DNA of 35,127 bases, taken from Planctomycetota bacterium (lineage in GTDB: Bacteria; Planctomycetota; Planctomycetia; Pirellulales; Pirellulaceae). This document shows positions 13,930 through 20,438 of this stretch, one piece after another (the stretch's first letter is position 1; each line of letters begins with the position of its first letter). A program made the position numbers and the translations under genes. The notes beneath the pieces were generated by a model. The model was not told the DNA's origin. It searched no databases and saw only the letters and a program-made list of their open reading frames with translations. The DNA lies in assembly GCA_029977825.1 (NCBI GenBank), contig JAPOKD010000003.1, positions 1 to 35,127 of the forward strand. The letters are read 5' to 3'.

Positions 13930-15495
13930 TCACCCGAAGACACCACCCGCCAGGAAACCGATAAACAACGATACCAAAATGCATGCGATCAGTAAGGCCA
14001 CCGCCAGCATGGGATCGATTCCCCTCGAGCGTCCACCCGAGCTACGTCCGCTAATACTGCTGACACTCTTCGAAGTGCTACCGTGCTGAGAATCGGCAAT
14101 GCCGACATCAGATGCACCCGATTTGGAAACTGGTCGTACTTTATCTGGCTTGGCTTGCTTCTCGCCTACCTGCGAATTCGGTCGATAACCGGACTCGGAC
14201 TGAAGATCGAGAAAACTTCCACCCACAAGATCAGGACGCGGCTTCACGTCGACCAGCCGGCCACTATCACTGGTACTCAGCCCCTTCTTTCGGACGAGCG
14301 CCGATCGATTATTTGCCAGAGTGTCGTCATTCTTGTTGCTGATGGTATCGCCATAACGCGACGAAGAGTCATCGTCGTCGAGCGAAATGGAAGAGGATTC
14401 ATCAGTATCAAACTCGGGCATGTCCCCCAACCCAGCAGTCACCTTGGTGCCTTTGGGTACCTTACTGGTGAATTTTTCAAGGACCTCTGCAACATCCGCA
14501 GCAGACTGGTACCGGTAACGGGGATCCTTCTGGATCATCTTGACGCAAATCCCCTCCAACTCGCCCGGGCAGTCGGGCCGCAATTGTCGGATTGCCGTCG
14601 GCATTTCGGTTTGATGCTTTGCTATTCTCTGTGCCAGAGTTCCGTCGCTGAATGGCGGTTTGCCTGTCAACAGAAAGTACATAGTGCAACCCAGACCATA
14701 GATATCAGCTCGATGATCAACCTCGTGACTGTTCAAGGCCTGTTCTGGCGCAAGGTAATCTGCCGTGCCAAGAACATTCTCGTTGTTCGCTACTGTCAAT
14801 GACTCATCATCCGTTGCAGTGACGAGGGCAAGTCCCATGTCAAGCAAGCGAACCACACCATCAACATCAATCAACAAGTTGGCGGGCTTAACGTCACGGT
14901 GAATCACACCCTTATTGTGAGCATGCGCCAATCCTCGAGCACCCTGCGCGATCAGGTCAGCCGCTGTCGACGGATCAACAGCACCATCCCGCTTCACCAA
15001 CTGCTGTAAATCCAGACCATCGACATATTCCATCACGATGTAATGCACATCGTCTTCATTGTCGATGTCGTAAGCCAAAACAATATTTGGATGGTTGAGT
15101 GAAGCAATCGCTTTGGCTTCAAGCATAAAGCGAGCCAGATAGGTTGCATCATTCACTCGACTTTTGGGCAACACTTTGATGGCACGCTTGTCGCCCATCT
15201 TTGTGTGCTCAGCCAGATACACACTGCTCATACCGCCGGTGCCAATATGGCCCAACAGTTTGTATTTGCCGAGAAAGAAACCCTTGTACTTTCCGGCAAG
15301 CAACTTCTCTACATGCCACTCGGTCAGCAGCTCTTCTCTGACGAAAAGCGCAGCAAGCTTTCTCGGACTCGAAGGGAGTCCGCCATCAAACTTTTTGCGT
15401 ACCTTTCCTACAAGGCGATCCGAGGCTTTCGCATCGACAATGCCGCTCTTGGCAACCATCTGTAGGAAGCGTTCTGATGTCAGCTTTTGCGTCAT
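13930..15495 (-). CDS. Membrane-anchored Ser/Thr protein kinase
   Basis: The first 75 residues form a small helical leader ([13 protein letters not shown] ... [12 protein letters not shown]), often seen ahead of planctomycete kinases. The Hanks-type domain spans about 78-345: glycine loop GTGGMSSV 85-92, Lys107 in AIKV, Glu126 in helix C, HRDVKPAN with Asp201, Lys203 and Asn206. The metal-binding motif reads D219-M-G rather than DFG, with the Asp kept, so activity is expected. Residues 350-490 are a Ser/Asp-rich linker, a plausible phosphorylation-rich region. One helix ([23 protein letters not shown]) closes the protein at about 496-518, so the kinase is cytoplasmic and tail-anchored with almost no outer part. 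It heads a row with the acyltransferase and ald; its substrate is unknown. Confidence 0.95.
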
Positions 15496-15831
15496 GGACA
15501 GCCAGCCGTGACCCCATGGAGTTCGGTGTATCGAAGTGAGAAGATAACAGGTTTCGTTAAGCTGGTTAAGCGACGAGACATGAACTTACGTGACTTTCAT
15601 AGAGACACGCGAAGATCCGATATCTTATCCGCAGAACTTTATCGTCCGTGTTGAACTCTAAGTCTACCACAGGTCCGGTGCGACGATATTTCCTCTTCTG
15701 AAGCTTAGTCAGCCCTCCTCAGACGACGGATATACCGGTTAGCATCAGAAAAGCAGGCGTTGCCCCGCCCCATGCTTTGCCTCAATTGAGTCCTCGACCT
15801 TTCCCGTTGCTCCCAAAACCGCAGTATTTCC
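15496..15831. other. 336-base divergent intergenic region
   Basis: It lies between the kinase gene (-) and the DUF2064 gene (+) and must hold both promoters. I see no recognisable -35/-10 pair, operator repeat, RNA gene or riboswitch. The plus-strand frame of the DUF2064 gene is closed by a TGA at 15787-15789, which limits how far upstream that gene can start. Confidence 0.5.
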
Positions 15832-16575
15832 TTGCAAAATCAGCCAAACCAGACAGTCTCGCTTGGACTCATGACAAAATACTGGACTCCTGGAAGTGTC
15901 AAAACCCGCTTGGGCAAAACGATCGGCATGGCCCCTGCTGCAGATCTACACCAACTTTTTGTCTCGAAGTTATGTGACACTCTGTCCACTGCAGCAGATC
16001 AACGGTATCTGTGCATCACACCGAATGAACATCTCTCAAGCGTACGGTTGGCACTTGAAAACTGGCAGTTATCCGAAAAATGGCAAGTAGTATTGCAGGA
16101 ACCGGGAGACCTGGGGGCAAAAATGAGCGGTTGGTTCCGGCGTGTCCTTGGAGCCAGCGGAACTGACACTGCTATCCTCATAGGAGGGGATTGCCCACTT
16201 TTGTGCAAAGAGGACATTACGCAAGCGGTTGATCGCCTAAGTCAATTTGACGTGGTTCTCGGCCCCGCACGGGATGGTGGCTATTATCTAATTGGAATCA
16301 CCGGACCGTGGCGTCCCGAGTTGGAAGCGATCTTTGATCAGATACCCTGGAGTACCGATCAGGTGCTCTCAATCACACGCCGGAAGCTAGCGACAGCTGA
16401 TCAAGCTGTGTCAGAACTCGAGCCCCGTGAAGACATCGATACCGAAAGGGAACTTATCCACCTGCTGCAGTCCCAGACGCAAGAACAACAAATGACGAGC
16501 CAGCACGAAGATTTCTTTTTGGCCGTCAACTCCATCCTCGAAAGCTCAGCATTATCTGACTGGAGGGACCGATGA
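15832..16575 (+). CDS. DUF2064/TIGR04282-type GT-A-like protein
   Basis: A 247-residue protein of the DUF2064 family, a nucleotide-sugar-transferase-like GT-A fold. Family hallmarks are LMTKYWTPGSVKTRL at 13-27, GGDCPLL at 118-124 with Asp120, and GPARDGGYYLIG at 144-155. Some relatives are annotated as arsenosugar biosynthesis glycosyltransferases (TIGR04282), but the substrate of most members is unknown. The start is the TTG at 15832: the first beta strand (TVSLGLMTKY) must be included, and there is no ATG before it after the in-frame TGA at 15787. Its stop overlaps the next gene's ATG (ATGA at 16572-16575), showing translational coupling with the ThiO-like oxidase. No other arsenosugar gene lies nearby, so that pathway is not supported. 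Confidence 0.8.
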   Translation: MQNQPNQTVSLGLMTKYWTPGSVKTRLGKTIGMAPAADLHQLFVSKLCDTLSTAADQRYLCITPNEHLSSVRLALENWQLSEKWQVVLQEPGDLGAKMSGWFRRVLGASGTDTAILIGGDCPLLCKEDITQAVDRLSQFDVVLGPARDGGYYLIGITGPWRPELEAIFDQIPWSTDQVLSITRRKLATADQAVSELEPREDIDTERELIHLLQSQTQEQQMTSQHEDFFLAVNSILESSALSDWRDR

Positions 16576-17726
16576 GTAAATCCATTACTGTCGTCGGTGC
16601 AGGTGCGATCGGTCTTAGTACAGCATGGGAGCTCTCTCAACGAGGTTTCGATGTTACGGTTATCGACAAAAGCGTCACCGGCAGAGGAACGTCCTGGGCA
16701 GGCGCTGGCATTTTGCCACCAGCGAATCTGGAAAACTCATTTGACCCAATCGACCGTTTACGTGGTCTCAGCCACCAACTATTCCCGGAATGGGCAGAGA
16801 AGCTGAAGACTGACACGGGGATCGATCCGGGTCTCCAACGTTGTGGTGGTCTTTATCTGGCCGAAACTGTTGGTGAAATTGCGGCCATGTCGGGGATGAC
16901 CGAATATTGGCAGGAGATGGAGATTGAATGCAAGCAGCTGACGCCAGACGAAATCCTCGACCAAGAAGCGGCATTGGCGGACTGGTGGCACAAGACGGAC
17001 AATGCCGCTGTATGGCATGTGCCCGATGAATATCAGTTGCGACCGCCAAGTTACCTTGCTGCTTTAAAAACGGCCTGCGAAAAACTGGACGTGACTTTTA
17101 TTGAAAACACCGATGTGACGGATATCCGGTGTCGGGGCGGAAGAGCTGAAATCCAGCACACAGGTCATTGGCATTCAGGTGATGACAGGATTGTTCTTAC
17201 AACCGGTGTTTGGACAGGCCAAATTGCATCATCGCTGAAACTGGAATTAAGCATTGTGCCGGTCCGTGGTCAAATTTTGCTGCTCAAAACATCGAGGCCC
17301 CTGATTCGGAACATCATCAATATGGGGCAAAGGTACGTTCTTGCCCGCGAAGATGGCCACACATTGATTGGCTCGAACGAAGAAGAAGTGGGCTTCGAAC
17401 TGGGAACAACAGGCACCGTGTTGAATTCTCTCATGGATTTTGCAACCCGCTTGCTGCCAGATTTGAAATCAGCCGAGCATGTCAAATCCTGGTCTGGTTT
17501 GCGTCCAATGACATTCGACGGATTTCCGATGATTGGCCCTGTAACGGACGTCGAGAATCTTTATGTTGCCGCAGGTCACTACCGCAGTGGCTTGCACCTG
17601 TCAGCGGGCACTGCCGTACTGATCGCGGATATGCTGAGTGAGGTAACACCCCAAATTCCGATCGAAGCTTTTCAGATTCGAAAACAACCAGGCAACCCGA
17701 CCACTCGATCCTTCACTACAAAATGA
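16572..17726 (+). CDS. thiO: ThiO-like glycine/D-amino acid oxidase
   Basis: FAD-dependent oxidase of the DAO family. ThiO oxidises glycine to dehydroglycine for the thiazole part of thiamine. The FAD motif VVGAGAIG lies at 7-14, with the acidic end of strand 2 at VTVID (28-32). The stretch RGTSWAGAGILPPAN (38-52) is the FAD-contact loop seen in ThiO. The C-terminal part, with WSGLRPMTFDGFPMIG and AAGHYRSGLHLSAGTA, matches the family's substrate-arginine and flavin-binding end. The length of 384 residues is usual. It overlaps both neighbours by ATGA. No thiG, thiS or thiC is in the window, so a role in thiamine synthesis is inferred from family only; oxidation of another small amine such as sarcosine is the alternative. 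Confidence 0.82.
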   Translation: MSKSITVVGAGAIGLSTAWELSQRGFDVTVIDKSVTGRGTSWAGAGILPPANLENSFDPIDRLRGLSHQLFPEWAEKLKTDTGIDPGLQRCGGLYLAETVGEIAAMSGMTEYWQEMEIECKQLTPDEILDQEAALADWWHKTDNAAVWHVPDEYQLRPPSYLAALKTACEKLDVTFIENTDVTDIRCRGGRAEIQHTGHWHSGDDRIVLTTGVWTGQIASSLKLELSIVPVRGQILLLKTSRPLIRNIINMGQRYVLAREDGHTLIGSNEEEVGFELGTTGTVLNSLMDFATRLLPDLKSAEHVKSWSGLRPMTFDGFPMIGPVTDVENLYVAAGHYRSGLHLSAGTAVLIADMLSEVTPQIPIEAFQIRKQPGNPTTRSFTTK

Positions 17727-18418
17727 ACAACCCTCCCAAACCTGACATGGATATGACACTAGATCCTCCCGGATCCATTGCAATTGTAGGAGCTGGCACG
17801 CATGGCATCGAAGCTGGTCTTTACGGCCGCTTTCTCGGCTACGATGTAACGGTTCTTGAGCGTGGTTCGATCGGGAACAACATGCTTAATGACAGCGATG
17901 CAGATTTGGTTGTTTTACCTGATCAATGCCTTTCGCCCCTCGCACTGTCTGCGGTAGCGACTCAGCATGCCGCCGAACATCCCGAAAGTGGACCGCTAGT
18001 ACATCCAGCGACAGTTTCAGCATGGATTGAAGAAGGATTGATTCCCTTGTCAGAATCAGACTTGTTGCGTGGCCGCGTCAAAACGGATCACCTAGTCACC
18101 AGCATTGATACTGTTCCGATTGAGCCCGAGGACGAGTCAGAGGCTTCCTCCGATTATCCTGCAGATTTCCTCATTCACTTTACTGATTCGGACGGAGCAG
18201 AGTCCAATCTGAGAGTTGAGGCTGTCTTGATTGCCACGGGCAGCCAATGCGACATTGAATTCATGTTTCCTCTGCCATGTCCATACCTTCATCGTATTGA
18301 ATCCACCTCACCTCACGACGCTGCCGGGCTCATTGGCGGTCGACGCCAAATTGTAGAAATCTACTCCCAGTTGGCAGGTCGGCAAGATCTGGATTTGTAC
18401 CGTCCGCCACGAGTATGA
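17723..18418 (+). CDS. Short flavoprotein-like Rossmann protein
   Basis: A 231-residue protein. It has a dinucleotide motif IVGAGTHGIEAGLYGRFLGYDVTVLERG (GxGxxG at 23-28, acidic strand end at VLE) and a second FAD-type motif VLIATGS at 168-174. It lacks a second GxGxxG NAD(P) domain and a C-terminal FAD-closing motif. The stretch YxRFLGYDVxxxERG followed by SPLALSAV and IPLSESDLLRGRV recalls longer single-chain oxidoreductases (400 residues or more) I associate with Planctomycetes; if so, this copy is shortened and may not be catalytic. Its ATG overlaps the stop of the ThiO-like gene (ATGA), so it is made with it. Function unknown; an electron partner or assembly subunit of the oxidase is possible. 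Confidence 0.65.
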   Translation: MNNPPKPDMDMTLDPPGSIAIVGAGTHGIEAGLYGRFLGYDVTVLERGSIGNNMLNDSDADLVVLPDQCLSPLALSAVATQHAAEHPESGPLVHPATVSAWIEEGLIPLSESDLLRGRVKTDHLVTSIDTVPIEPEDESEASSDYPADFLIHFTDSDGAESNLRVEAVLIATGSQCDIEFMFPLPCPYLHRIESTSPHDAAGLIGGRRQIVEIYSQLAGRQDLDLYRPPRV

Positions 18419-18638
18419 ATCCTGACGGTTATATGGATCATGTCAGCTGTGTTTATCAGGTCACGCCGGTAAGCCAGGGATTCTTTTCAGCCTGCCGCGA
18501 CGATGCCTCCAATGTGTCCTAGCATTACGTGACGCAGGTCGAATCAGTCCACTTGGCTTTCCTACCCGCGTCTGCGTATCCGCCTTTTGGGACTGTCGTT
18601 CCTGCTTTAGGGCATTCACGCGACTCGGGGGTAACTTC

Positions 18639-18878
18639 ATGATCAAACTGACTCGACTGGATGGCGAACCATTCGTCCTTAATGCGGACTTGATTCGTTA
18701 CATCGAACGCCGGCCTGACACCTTTATAACGCTCATCAGCGGTGAGCGAATTGTTGTAGGCGAGACCATGGAAGTGGTGATAGAGCGTGCTGTGCAGTAC
18801 CAGCAGCAGAAGCACTTCATGCCCATGCCAACCGCAAGCTTTACAACAGCCACGGTGCCTACGCCCGCCACGAACTGA
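18639..18878 (+). CDS. flbD: FlbD family flagellar protein
   Basis: A 79-residue protein whose first 60 residues match the FlbD family: MIKLTRLDGEPFVLNADLI at the start, then IERRPDTFITLISGERIVVGE and a short helix. The family is small, cytoplasmic and found at the head of motility operons in Gram-positive bacteria, spirochaetes and others; its molecular role is poorly known. It is not the Caulobacter FlbD regulator. The last 20 residues are Thr/Pro/Ala-rich and beyond the family core. It is 18 bases ahead of motA and 220 bases after the preceding gene, so it is the probable first gene of the flagellar operon. Confidence 0.9.
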   Translation: MIKLTRLDGEPFVLNADLIRYIERRPDTFITLISGERIVVGETMEVVIERAVQYQQQKHFMPMPTASFTTATVPTPATN

Positions 18879-18896
18879 TCATCACAGACACCAAAC

Positions 18897-19658
18897 ATGG
18901 ATATTGCCAGTATCGTCGGCTTGCTTTTAGCGGTCGGCCTCATCATCGCCTCCATCATGCTGGGAGAAGCTCCCTTCACTGCCTTCTTGGATCTTCCTTC
19001 CATGTTGGTTGTGTTTGGTGGTGCTGTGGCCGCAGCCATGATCTGCTTTCCACTGCACAGCATGCTGAAAGCCCCGATGATCGCGCTCAAGGTGCTGATG
19101 AACAAAAACGAGGATCGAATTGGTTTGATCAACCAGATCGTTGAGCTCGCTGAAACAGCCCGCCGTGATGGACTTCTGGCCTTGGAATCGAAAGTACTGG
19201 AAATTGACAATCCACTTGTAAAGACCGGTATACAAATGGCCGTTGACGGCAGCACTCCGGATGTTGTTGAAGAAGTTCTGAGAACAGAAATCGAGGCGAT
19301 TGCCAGTCGCCACCGTGAAGGCAAAAGCATGATGGATCAGTTGGGAAGATTCGCACCTGCCTACGGAATGATCGGAACACTGATTGGACTGATCATGATG
19401 CTGCAGGACATGAGCGATCCCTCTGGAATTGGCAAAGGAATGGCTGTTGCGCTGATCACCACCTTGTACGGCGCGATCATTGCCAATGTGTTCTTCAGCC
19501 CGTTTGCCGAAAAACTGGGTCTGATGAGCCGTAACGAAATGGTCAGTTTCGAAATTGCGGTGCGCGGTGTGATGGCCATTCAATCTGGTGAAAGCCCTCG
19601 TGCGATCGATCAGAAACTAAGAACGTTTCTACCCCCGAAACAGCGTGATCTGGAGTAG
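18897..19658 (+). CDS. motA: Flagellar stator protein MotA
   Basis: Proton or sodium channel subunit of the flagellar stator; with MotB it forms the MotA5B2 ion-driven torque generator in the inner membrane. The 253 residues carry four helices: about 4-22, 35-52, 155-175 and 187-207. The cytoplasmic loop between helices 2 and 3 contains the charged region with RTEIEAIASRHREGKSMM. The conserved prolines appear in FAPAYGMIGT (helix 3) and FFSPFAEKL (end of helix 4). Length and N-terminus fit the short MotA/PomA type. It sits between flbD and motB; three bases separate its stop from motB. Confidence 0.96.
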   Translation: MDIASIVGLLLAVGLIIASIMLGEAPFTAFLDLPSMLVVFGGAVAAAMICFPLHSMLKAPMIALKVLMNKNEDRIGLINQIVELAETARRDGLLALESKVLEIDNPLVKTGIQMAVDGSTPDVVEEVLRTEIEAIASRHREGKSMMDQLGRFAPAYGMIGTLIGLIMMLQDMSDPSGIGKGMAVALITTLYGAIIANVFFSPFAEKLGLMSRNEMVSFEIAVRGVMAIQSGESPRAIDQKLRTFLPPKQRDLE

Positions 19659-19661
19659 GCC

Positions 19662-20438
19662 ATGAACGACGAACCAGAAGAAATGGGAATTCCCGAATGG
19701 GTCGTCACTTTTGGTGACATGATGAGTCTGTTGCTGACTTTCTTCATCATGCTTGTTTCGCTGAGTGAGATCAAAGACGACGAGACATATCAGAAACTGG
19801 TGGATTCTGTTCAACGCGAGTTCGGCTATTCACGTTCTTCGGAGTCTCTTTCACCGGGTAAAAAACGACCTCGCAAAACAGAGTTCACACCGCTGGCAAC
19901 CACCGGTCGGGCCAAACGCAAGGACACGACCAAAGGTGGAATTCCTGTCAAAGCTCCATCTGGCGAAGAGCCCCGAGTACGCATTGTGCGTCCTGGCCAA
20001 TTAACGGCCGTAGGCTCGGTGATTTTCTTCAAGATCGGAAAAGCATCACTCACCCCAGCGGCACGAAGCGAGATCAAGCAACTCGCAGACAAACTGCGGG
20101 GAAAACCCCAGAAAATTGAAATTCGCGGTCATGTGTCACCCGTTTACGCTAATCGCGTTGACGACACCAAACTAACCATACAGCTGGGCTTTGAGCGTGC
20201 ACTGAATGTACGACAGGCTTTGGTCAACGAAGAAGGCATCAATCCCGCAAGGTGCCGTGTCGCATCCGTTGGAGACAACGAGCCAGTGGACACCTCGGCA
20301 TCTGGTGATTCGAGCATTCCAAACCCGAGGGTCGAAGTATTCATGCTTAGTGAATCTTTCGCAGATCCAAACGAACGTGATTCCCAAAGAACACCTGCCA
20401 CAGCCAATGAGGCAACAAAGGAGAAAAGTAATGGCTGA
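19662..20438 (+). CDS. motB: Flagellar stator protein MotB
   Basis: Stator subunit that anchors the motor to peptidoglycan. Residues 10-34 are the single N-terminal helix with the plug of the family, WVVTFGDMMSLLLTFFIMLVSL, where Asp19 is the ion-carrying aspartate. A basic linker (about 55-100) leads to an OmpA-like peptidoglycan-binding domain (about 108-230) with VIFFKIGKASLTPAA, IRGHVSP, and NPRVEVFML near its end. GGAG lies nine bases before the ATG, inside the end of motA. The gene overlaps the start of fliL by eight bases, so motA, motB and fliL are probably coupled. Confidence 0.95.
   Translation: MNDEPEEMGIPEWVVTFGDMMSLLLTFFIMLVSLSEIKDDETYQKLVDSVQREFGYSRSSESLSPGKKRPRKTEFTPLATTGRAKRKDTTKGGIPVKAPSGEEPRVRIVRPGQLTAVGSVIFFKIGKASLTPAARSEIKQLADKLRGKPQKIEIRGHVSPVYANRVDDTKLTIQLGFERALNVRQALVNEEGINPARCRVASVGDNEPVDTSASGDSSIPNPRVEVFMLSESFADPNERDSQRTPATANEATKEKSNG
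20418..20423 (+). promoter_or_regulatory. Ribosome binding site of fliL
   Basis: AAGGAG ends seven bases before the ATG at 20431, inside the end of motB. It settles the fliL start against longer in-frame options that would run back to about 20206 through the motB coding region. Confidence 0.7.

Follow-up and report, generated by a model that had tools for sequence, protein, structure and literature searches.

Where the dehydroglycine needed for thiamine comes from in some planctomycetes, whether a clade of DUF2064 proteins serves the dehydroglycine step, and what role is left to a reductase remnant that consists of a flavin adenine dinucleotide (FAD) domain only, once its domain for reduced nicotinamide adenine dinucleotide (phosphate), NAD(P)H, and a radical S-adenosylmethionine (SAM) neighbour gene are gone, are the questions raised by a three-gene cassette of a Planctomycetota bacterium. 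The cassette lies at positions 15832-18418 of the 35,127 nucleotides analysed here (the window; contig JAPOKD010000003.1 of assembly GCA_029977825.1). The window comes from a draft genome of 6.45 Mb that is 86% complete; its closest named relatives are isolates of Rhodopirellula and Rubripirellula. The cassette comprises three forward-strand open reading frames (ORFs) encoding a DUF2064 protein, a ThiO-type oxidase and a third protein that we call P3. We propose that it probably joins parts of two gene groups of older origin, a DUF2064-ThiO unit for thiamine synthesis and a trimmed remnant of a separate module that comprises the long form of P3 (P3L), a radical SAM protein and a metallophosphoesterase. 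The unexpected part of the cassette is the trimmed flavoprotein under selection. A literature search, whose coverage left out most subscription papers, found no paper on this cassette. Its features are as follows:

15832-16575, forward strand: DUF2064/TIGR04282 GT-A-like nucleotidyl/glycosyltransferase-type protein, 247 amino acids (TTG start, start site uncertain; profile matches)
16562-16567, forward strand: GGAGGG within the DUF2064 gene, a Shine-Dalgarno-like site ahead of ThiO (sequence)
16572-16575, forward strand: ATGA overlap of the DUF2064 stop and the ThiO start (sequence)
16572-17726, forward strand: ThiO-type FAD glycine oxidase, 384 amino acids (profiles; PDB 4ysh, E 2e-50)
17334-17336, forward strand: ThiO Tyr255, aligned to 1ng3_A position 267
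17502-17504, forward strand: ThiO Arg311, aligned to 1ng3_A position 323
17583-17585, forward strand: ThiO Arg338, aligned to 1ng3_A position 350
17723-17726, forward strand: ATGA overlap of the ThiO stop and the P3 start (sequence)
17723-18418, forward strand: P3, 231 amino acids, FAD-domain-only derivative of a flavoprotein of about 420 amino acids with two dinucleotide domains, the NAD(P)H domain being excised
17789-17806, forward strand: GAGTHG of P3, retained GxGxxG dinucleotide-binding loop (sequence, alignment)
18242-18292, forward strand: junction region of P3, at which the short form lacks the NAD(P)H domain of the long form, about 190 residues (alignment)
18380-18400, forward strand: RQDLDLY of P3, C-terminal motif common to the short and long forms (alignment)

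The two ATGA overlaps and the three consecutive ORFs lie exactly where the original prediction, made from the letters of the window, had placed them, and the families it named, DUF2064/TIGR04282 and a ThiO-type oxidase, are borne out by profile scores. Its statement that no thiamine gene is nearby holds among the window ORFs that were scanned, which were part of the total. The ATG of P3, unlike that of ThiO with its GGAGGG, has no Shine-Dalgarno-like site upstream of it in the sequence, so that any translational coupling of P3 would need reinitiation. Promoter and terminator scans gave a signal no better than that of shuffled sequence.

P3 had been described as a truncated flavoprotein. It is a shortened flavoprotein, but alignment and structure comparison point to an internal excision rather than to a simple truncation. 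Profile searches with the window P3 returned only Rossmann-motif matches, below curated cut-offs. In our synteny sample of 117 genomes from the genus, family and order, the lengths of 85 of the 86 extracted P3 proteins (that of G111, cut by a contig end, was dropped) are bimodal, with 35 proteins at 215-274 amino acids, 50 at 405-462 and none between. The short form aligns with both ends of P3L, and about 190 central residues are absent from it. The predicted model of P3L (predicted local distance difference test, pLDDT, 95.7) contains an FAD and an NAD(P)H domain and matches 7a76_D with a template-modelling (TM) score of 0.83 by target length, which assigns P3L, at the level of the model, to the thioredoxin reductase/bacillithiol disulfide reductase fold. 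In the predicted model of the short P3 (pLDDT 88.8, predicted TM score 0.87), residues 17-220 align to residues 4-324 of 7a76_C (168/325 residues used, Z 16.4, root-mean-square deviation 2.9, 17% identity). Since P3 fits the FAD domain of 7a76_C over this split range, its NAD(P)H domain has been excised, and the FAD-domain halves on either side are joined to each other.

The excision was accompanied by changes in the motifs around the cofactor. The window clade accounts for 29 of the short forms, of which 28-29 keep the GxGxxG loop and 28 the acidic residue that follows it. Most of 63 long forms have the loop WxxVxxFSPF; it is replaced in these 29 proteins, and little remains of their C-terminal YxLGxKSYGR (24/29 show gaps at the second G and at the R, though 16 retain the first G). 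RxDLDLY stands at the C-terminal end of all 29. Six other short forms retain parts of YxLGxKSYGR. This pattern suggests that P3 of the window clade may still bind the adenine part of the dinucleotide, and it makes flavin chemistry in this protein doubtful.

As judged from substitution rates, P3 is under purifying selection. The ratio of nonsynonymous to synonymous substitution rates (dN/dS) between close pairs is 0.07-0.11 for P3 (five pairs; two further ones were saturated), 0.09-0.12 for ThiO (seven pairs) and 0.15-0.23 for DUF2064, values that are rough, since dS is 0.7-1.7 in the pairs used. The P3 frame is open in the 22 genomes of the genus, without stops within the matches.

The history of P3 was followed in a draw of 294 genomes across the phylum with an E limit of 1e-20, which a very divergent short P3 could escape. 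P3 was found in 17 of them, 13 outside the order, and all 13 of these relatives have the long form; the long form is therefore probably ancestral and the short one derived. The ThiO tree needs five excision changes (at least four forced by well-supported branches), the P3 tree three (two forced), and a rooted P3 tree two (one forced); the rooted tree left out G033, which had a long branch in the earlier P3 tree. More than one excision of P3 is likely on these trees, with the count unsettled.

The gene neighbourhood of P3L indicates where the remnant would come from. Of the 13 loci fetched from outside the order, 9 have a radical SAM gene and a metallophosphoesterase gene behind P3L (L343, L344, L346, L347, L348, L351, L352, L354 and L355; for example, L347:2511-5473), with a gap of 1.7 kb after P3L in L344. 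ThiO is present in none of these 13 loci, and DUF2064 in one (L346). Within the order, 28 genomes have both P3L and the radical SAM gene in their fetched loci, and in all 28 the latter comes directly after P3L; a metallophosphoesterase gene stands behind the radical SAM gene in 22/22. No named NCBIfam family above cut-off was found for the module in the two examples scanned. P3L, radical SAM protein and metallophosphoesterase thus form an uncharacterised module that is scattered through Planctomycetota and to which the present analysis also draws attention. Strong radical SAM matches (E < 1e-100) are present in 32 of the 117 genomes, namely in 31 of the 50 with a long P3 and in G108, and in none of the 35 with a short P3. 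This association of the short P3 with radical SAM absence is one-sided, and it is not significant over independent pairs. The radical SAM protein of the module has about 300 amino acids and carries a C-terminal GACxTCYQxGAICSN in four sequences.

ThiO appears to be an ordinary glycine oxidase. It scores 244 bits with the DAO profile and 243.7 with TIGR02352, and the solved structures closest to it are glycine oxidases (4ysh, E 2e-50). Tyr255, Arg311 and Arg338 align to positions 267, 323 and 350 of 1ng3_A, which we take to be Tyr246, Arg302 (substrate carboxylate site) and Arg329 of the Bacillus subtilis glycine oxidase. The Tyr is found in 86/86 rows of the alignment, Arg311 in 85/86 (one gap) and Arg338 in 84/86 (two gaps), indicating that ThiO retains the Tyr/Arg/Arg site of glycine oxidases. 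This ThiO is the sole close copy in its genome (next match, E 6e-16), in which contig C59 carries thiS-thiG and contig C943 thiC. A strong ThiH was not found in the window genome, where the best match scores 24 bits (cut-off 380), and ThiO and ThiG co-occur in 97 of the 117 genomes. According to one report, dehydroglycine is supplied by glycine oxidase in aerobes and by ThiH in anaerobes (PMC9046217). ThiO has the residues of a glycine oxidase, and no other candidate source of dehydroglycine was found in this genome, which has thiS, thiG and thiC; an ordinary role in thiamine synthesis would therefore explain it, and its most likely function is to make dehydroglycine for thiamine.

Across the sample, 103 of the 111 genomes with ThiO were kept as strong (best E < 1e-38), as were 84/85 genomes with DUF2064 and 107/108 with ThiG, weak single matches being dropped. 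Within the genus, synteny of the three families, which the original prediction had proposed as a check, is conserved. DUF2064 stands directly upstream of ThiO in 22/22 genomes and ThiO directly upstream of P3 in 21/22; in the remaining genome (G016), contig ends cut ThiO, and P3 lies behind its 3' piece. Among culturable relatives, Rubripirellula obstinata and a Stieleria strain carry the cassette. The exact overlaps are less conserved than the gene order within the genus. ATGA is present at the DUF2064 stop in 14/22 genus genomes (23/56 of all fetched loci) and at the ThiO stop in 8/22 (one cut by a contig end; 12/86 of all fetched loci). In the whole sample, DUF2064 and ThiO are adjacent in 53 of the 79 genomes that have both, and they constitute a real recurrent pair; ThiO of G042 is in two pieces and its DUF2064 neighbour was not counted (otherwise 54/79). 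DUF2064 was not found in 24 of the 103 genomes with a strong ThiO and is thus not indispensable.

The original prediction had also named arrangements that would argue against a shared function. Separation of the three genes was found in part. ThiO and P3 are adjacent in 48 of the 81 genomes with both and not directly adjacent in 33 (more than 600 bp apart, on the other strand or on another contig, some contig breaks included), though they lie no more than 3 kb apart in 56/81; outside the order, ThiO is at none of the 13 long-form loci. The second arrangement, thiG or thiS beside ThiO with DUF2064 elsewhere, was not seen, as ThiG lies within 20 kb of ThiO in 0/97 genomes. G097 shows instead a DUF2064 gene directly before thiS and thiG (L305:6991-9116), with ThiO elsewhere.

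The DUF2064 protein of the window scores 100.1 bits with DUF2064 (PF09837; cut-off 25.8) and 159.3 with TIGR04282 (cut-off 134), and the solved structure closest to it is 3cgx (E 5e-21). In a tree of 69 DUF2064 copies, 62, including 53 labelled as ThiO-adjacent, split from 7 others with a support of 100 in the Shimodaira-Hasegawa-like approximate likelihood ratio test. Three of these 7 copies were scanned (L314, L316 and L324): that of L314 is fused to TIGR04283 and adjoins an ArsS-type radical SAM gene (arsenosugar type), that of L324 carries fused domains of glycosyltransferase family 2, and that of L316 stands alone. The window copy belongs to the clade of 62 and not to that of the arsenosugar-type copy. 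No arsenosugar linkage was found at the window among the scanned part of its ORFs, where a nearby methyltransferase reaches 16.3 bits against 400 for AsSugarArsM and a family 2 glycosyltransferase 32.5 against 182 for TIGR04283. The DUF2064 of G097 is of the ThiO-type clade, and its arrangement with thiS and thiG is a second, independent link of this clade to thiazole synthesis, as a single case (1/77 genomes with DUF2064 and ThiG). DUF2064 lies away from ThiO in 26 genomes, and neighbours were looked at in six of these loci, in G097 and in a few more; no thiamine gene was detected by Pfam among nine neighbour proteins at the six loci. In G107, DUF2064 lies within an open frame of 835 amino acids (L165:6540-9044), possibly fused to another domain.

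Taken together, we propose that ThiO would oxidise glycine with O2 and so supply dehydroglycine (2-iminoacetate) to ThiG, this partner being encoded with ThiS on another contig, and that DUF2064, as a GT-A/nucleotidyltransferase-type enzyme, would somehow be tied to the dehydroglycine step. P3 would be a leftover of the module, in which P3L probably passes electrons from NAD(P)H. The searched genomes of the Rhodopirellula-Rubripirellula-Stieleria clade have no strong radical SAM match and, as far as the locus itself goes, no phosphoesterase gene. In this clade, P3 no longer has an NAD(P)H domain or most of the flavin-ring contacts but retains the adenine-dinucleotide loop, and selection keeps it for a role probably other than NAD(P)H-dependent reduction. 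A more ambitious version, which we consider rather unlikely, is that a flavoprotein of the thioredoxin reductase fold was reduced, probably more than once in the order and by excision of its entire NAD(P)H domain, to one domain that binds an adenine dinucleotide and has become a partner of the glycine oxidase; with the ThiO-linked DUF2064 it would form an unrecognised accessory set for the thiazole branch, either for dehydroglycine handling or for a missing nucleotidyl step.

Several observations weigh against the proposal of a thiamine unit joined to a module remnant. The window ThiO falls 7 bits below the TIGR02352 cut-off of 250.8, which is passed by 7 of 10 chosen orthologues (range 243.3-277.9), including that of G012 from the same genus. 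ThiG is never close to ThiO, as said above, and a search of the window and of six thiamine loci gave no thiamine pyrophosphate (TPP) riboswitch or other Rfam RNA at gathering score (a single sub-threshold match within 15400-18700 has E 0.66). Six genomes have a strong ThiO and no ThiG match; two of the six, G008 and G020, belong to the genus of the window, have a listed completeness of 98 and 99% and carry the cassette. Conversely, ten genomes have ThiG without a strong ThiO, four of them with ThiH-like matches, none above the ThiH cut-off. On the side of the module, 19 long-P3 genomes also lack a strong radical SAM match, and when excision and radical SAM absence were compared over independent pairs, 2.3 pairs spoke for a link, 0 against it and 1.7 showed no difference (median p 0.5, not significant). 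In G108, the radical SAM gene is directly behind ThiO, with no P3 between them. Finally, the dN/dS values are rough, and the excision count differs between the P3 trees (2-3) and the ThiO tree (5).

For G008 and G020, an assembly gap or a real loss of ThiG are both possible. ThiH-like matches (11 genomes, E < 1e-80) are enriched where a strong ThiO is missing (6/14 genomes without it, 5/103 with it; Fisher p 3e-4, uncorrected for kinship). This enrichment was given no weight, since none of the matches passes the ThiH cut-off and their open frames, of 451-622 amino acids, suggest HydG-like proteins.

The original prediction suggested that the cassette may be a small, unrecognised pathway that oxidises an amine and processes a nucleotide-linked intermediate. 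In such an uncharacterised pathway, ThiO would oxidise a specific amine, DUF2064 would attach a nucleotide or sugar and P3 would be an accessory subunit. The gene order kept in the genus, the overlaps, the equal constraint on P3 and ThiO, and the two nearly complete genus genomes that have the cassette and no ThiG match are what one would expect from such a pathway. A new amine-oxidising pathway is nevertheless left unsupported by the glycine oxidase residues of ThiO and by a genome that has thiC and, unlinked to the cassette, thiS-thiG. Moreover, ThiO and P3 are not adjacent in 33/81 genomes, DUF2064 was not found in 24/103, and in 9/13 loci outside the order P3L travels with the radical SAM and phosphoesterase genes and without ThiO, so that we regard this pathway as improbable. 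We give equally little credit to the idea that P3 is a dedicated partner of ThiO, i.e., a stabiliser or a delivery protein for short-lived dehydroglycine whose ratio to ThiO is set by translational coupling. It would account for the adjacency in 21/22 genus genomes, for the ATGA in 8/22 and for a protein that has mostly lost its flavin-ring contacts and retained its fold and its C-terminal RxDLDLY. It does not fit an overlap that is not conserved, nor the short P3 of G058 and G066, which is on a different contig from ThiO, nor that of G049, about 1.5 kb away.

Hydrogen cyanide synthase (HcnBC) and archaeal L-proline dehydrogenase pair a DAO protein with a protein of the thioredoxin reductase fold, and P3 and ThiO could likewise form a two-flavoprotein amine dehydrogenase. 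The type of pair is the same, and 1y56_B is among the matches of ThiO, but 1y56_A is not in the best 60 of 100 profile matches of P3L, and most flavin-contact motifs are lost in the short P3; we consider an enzyme of this kind very improbable. Still harder to accept is a P3 that is a pseudogene in decay, carried along by its position next to ThiO. The loss of a domain and of flavin motifs would agree with decay; a frame open in 22 genus genomes and a confident predicted fold do not, and we rejected it on a dN/dS of about 0.1, like that of ThiO. We therefore retain the proposal of a DUF2064-ThiO unit for thiamine next to a trimmed remnant of the P3L module.

Behind the cassette, at 18639-20438 of the window, there is a gene for FlbD (Pfam), followed by ORFs assigned as MotA and MotB. 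The same three genes are downstream in many loci of the genus, and some relatives have the cassette without them at the locus. A serine/threonine kinase gene upstream, on the opposite strand, is kept in those genus loci that extend far enough. G004 has two copies of the cassette, on contigs C7 and C410, whose ThiO proteins have 77% and 85% identity to that of the window, perhaps because of mixed strains in the bin. In G003, ThiO is split over two frames (L048:8480-9705), a possible frameshift or assembly error, and that of G042 is likewise in two overlapping frames (L066:6711-7996).

Each protein of the cassette can be compared with a known family. The window ThiO is like the glycine oxidase ThiO of B. 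subtilis (TIGR02352; 1ng3/1ryi) and 4ysh in its fold family, its FAD loop and its active-site Tyr and two Arg residues. It differs from the known ThiO in not being near thiS/thiG, in its place behind DUF2064 and in its score 7 bits below the model cut-off. The DUF2064 protein passes the cut-offs of both TIGR04282, a family named arsenosugar biosynthesis glycosyltransferase, and PF09837, and its clade is separate from that of the arsenosugar-type copy of L314. P3 shares, in the predicted models, the FAD-domain fold with Bdr/YpdA (7a76) and the thioredoxin reductase-like ferredoxin-NADP reductases, and P3L shares both domains with them; unlike Bdr/YpdA, P3 is without an NAD(P)H domain and has lost most of the flavin-contact motifs. 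The atypical thioredoxin reductase DvTRi is described as a flavoprotein of this fold that does not use NADPH (PMC5627308). DvTRi retains a pseudo NADPH domain, whereas P3 has lost the NAD(P)H domain entirely.

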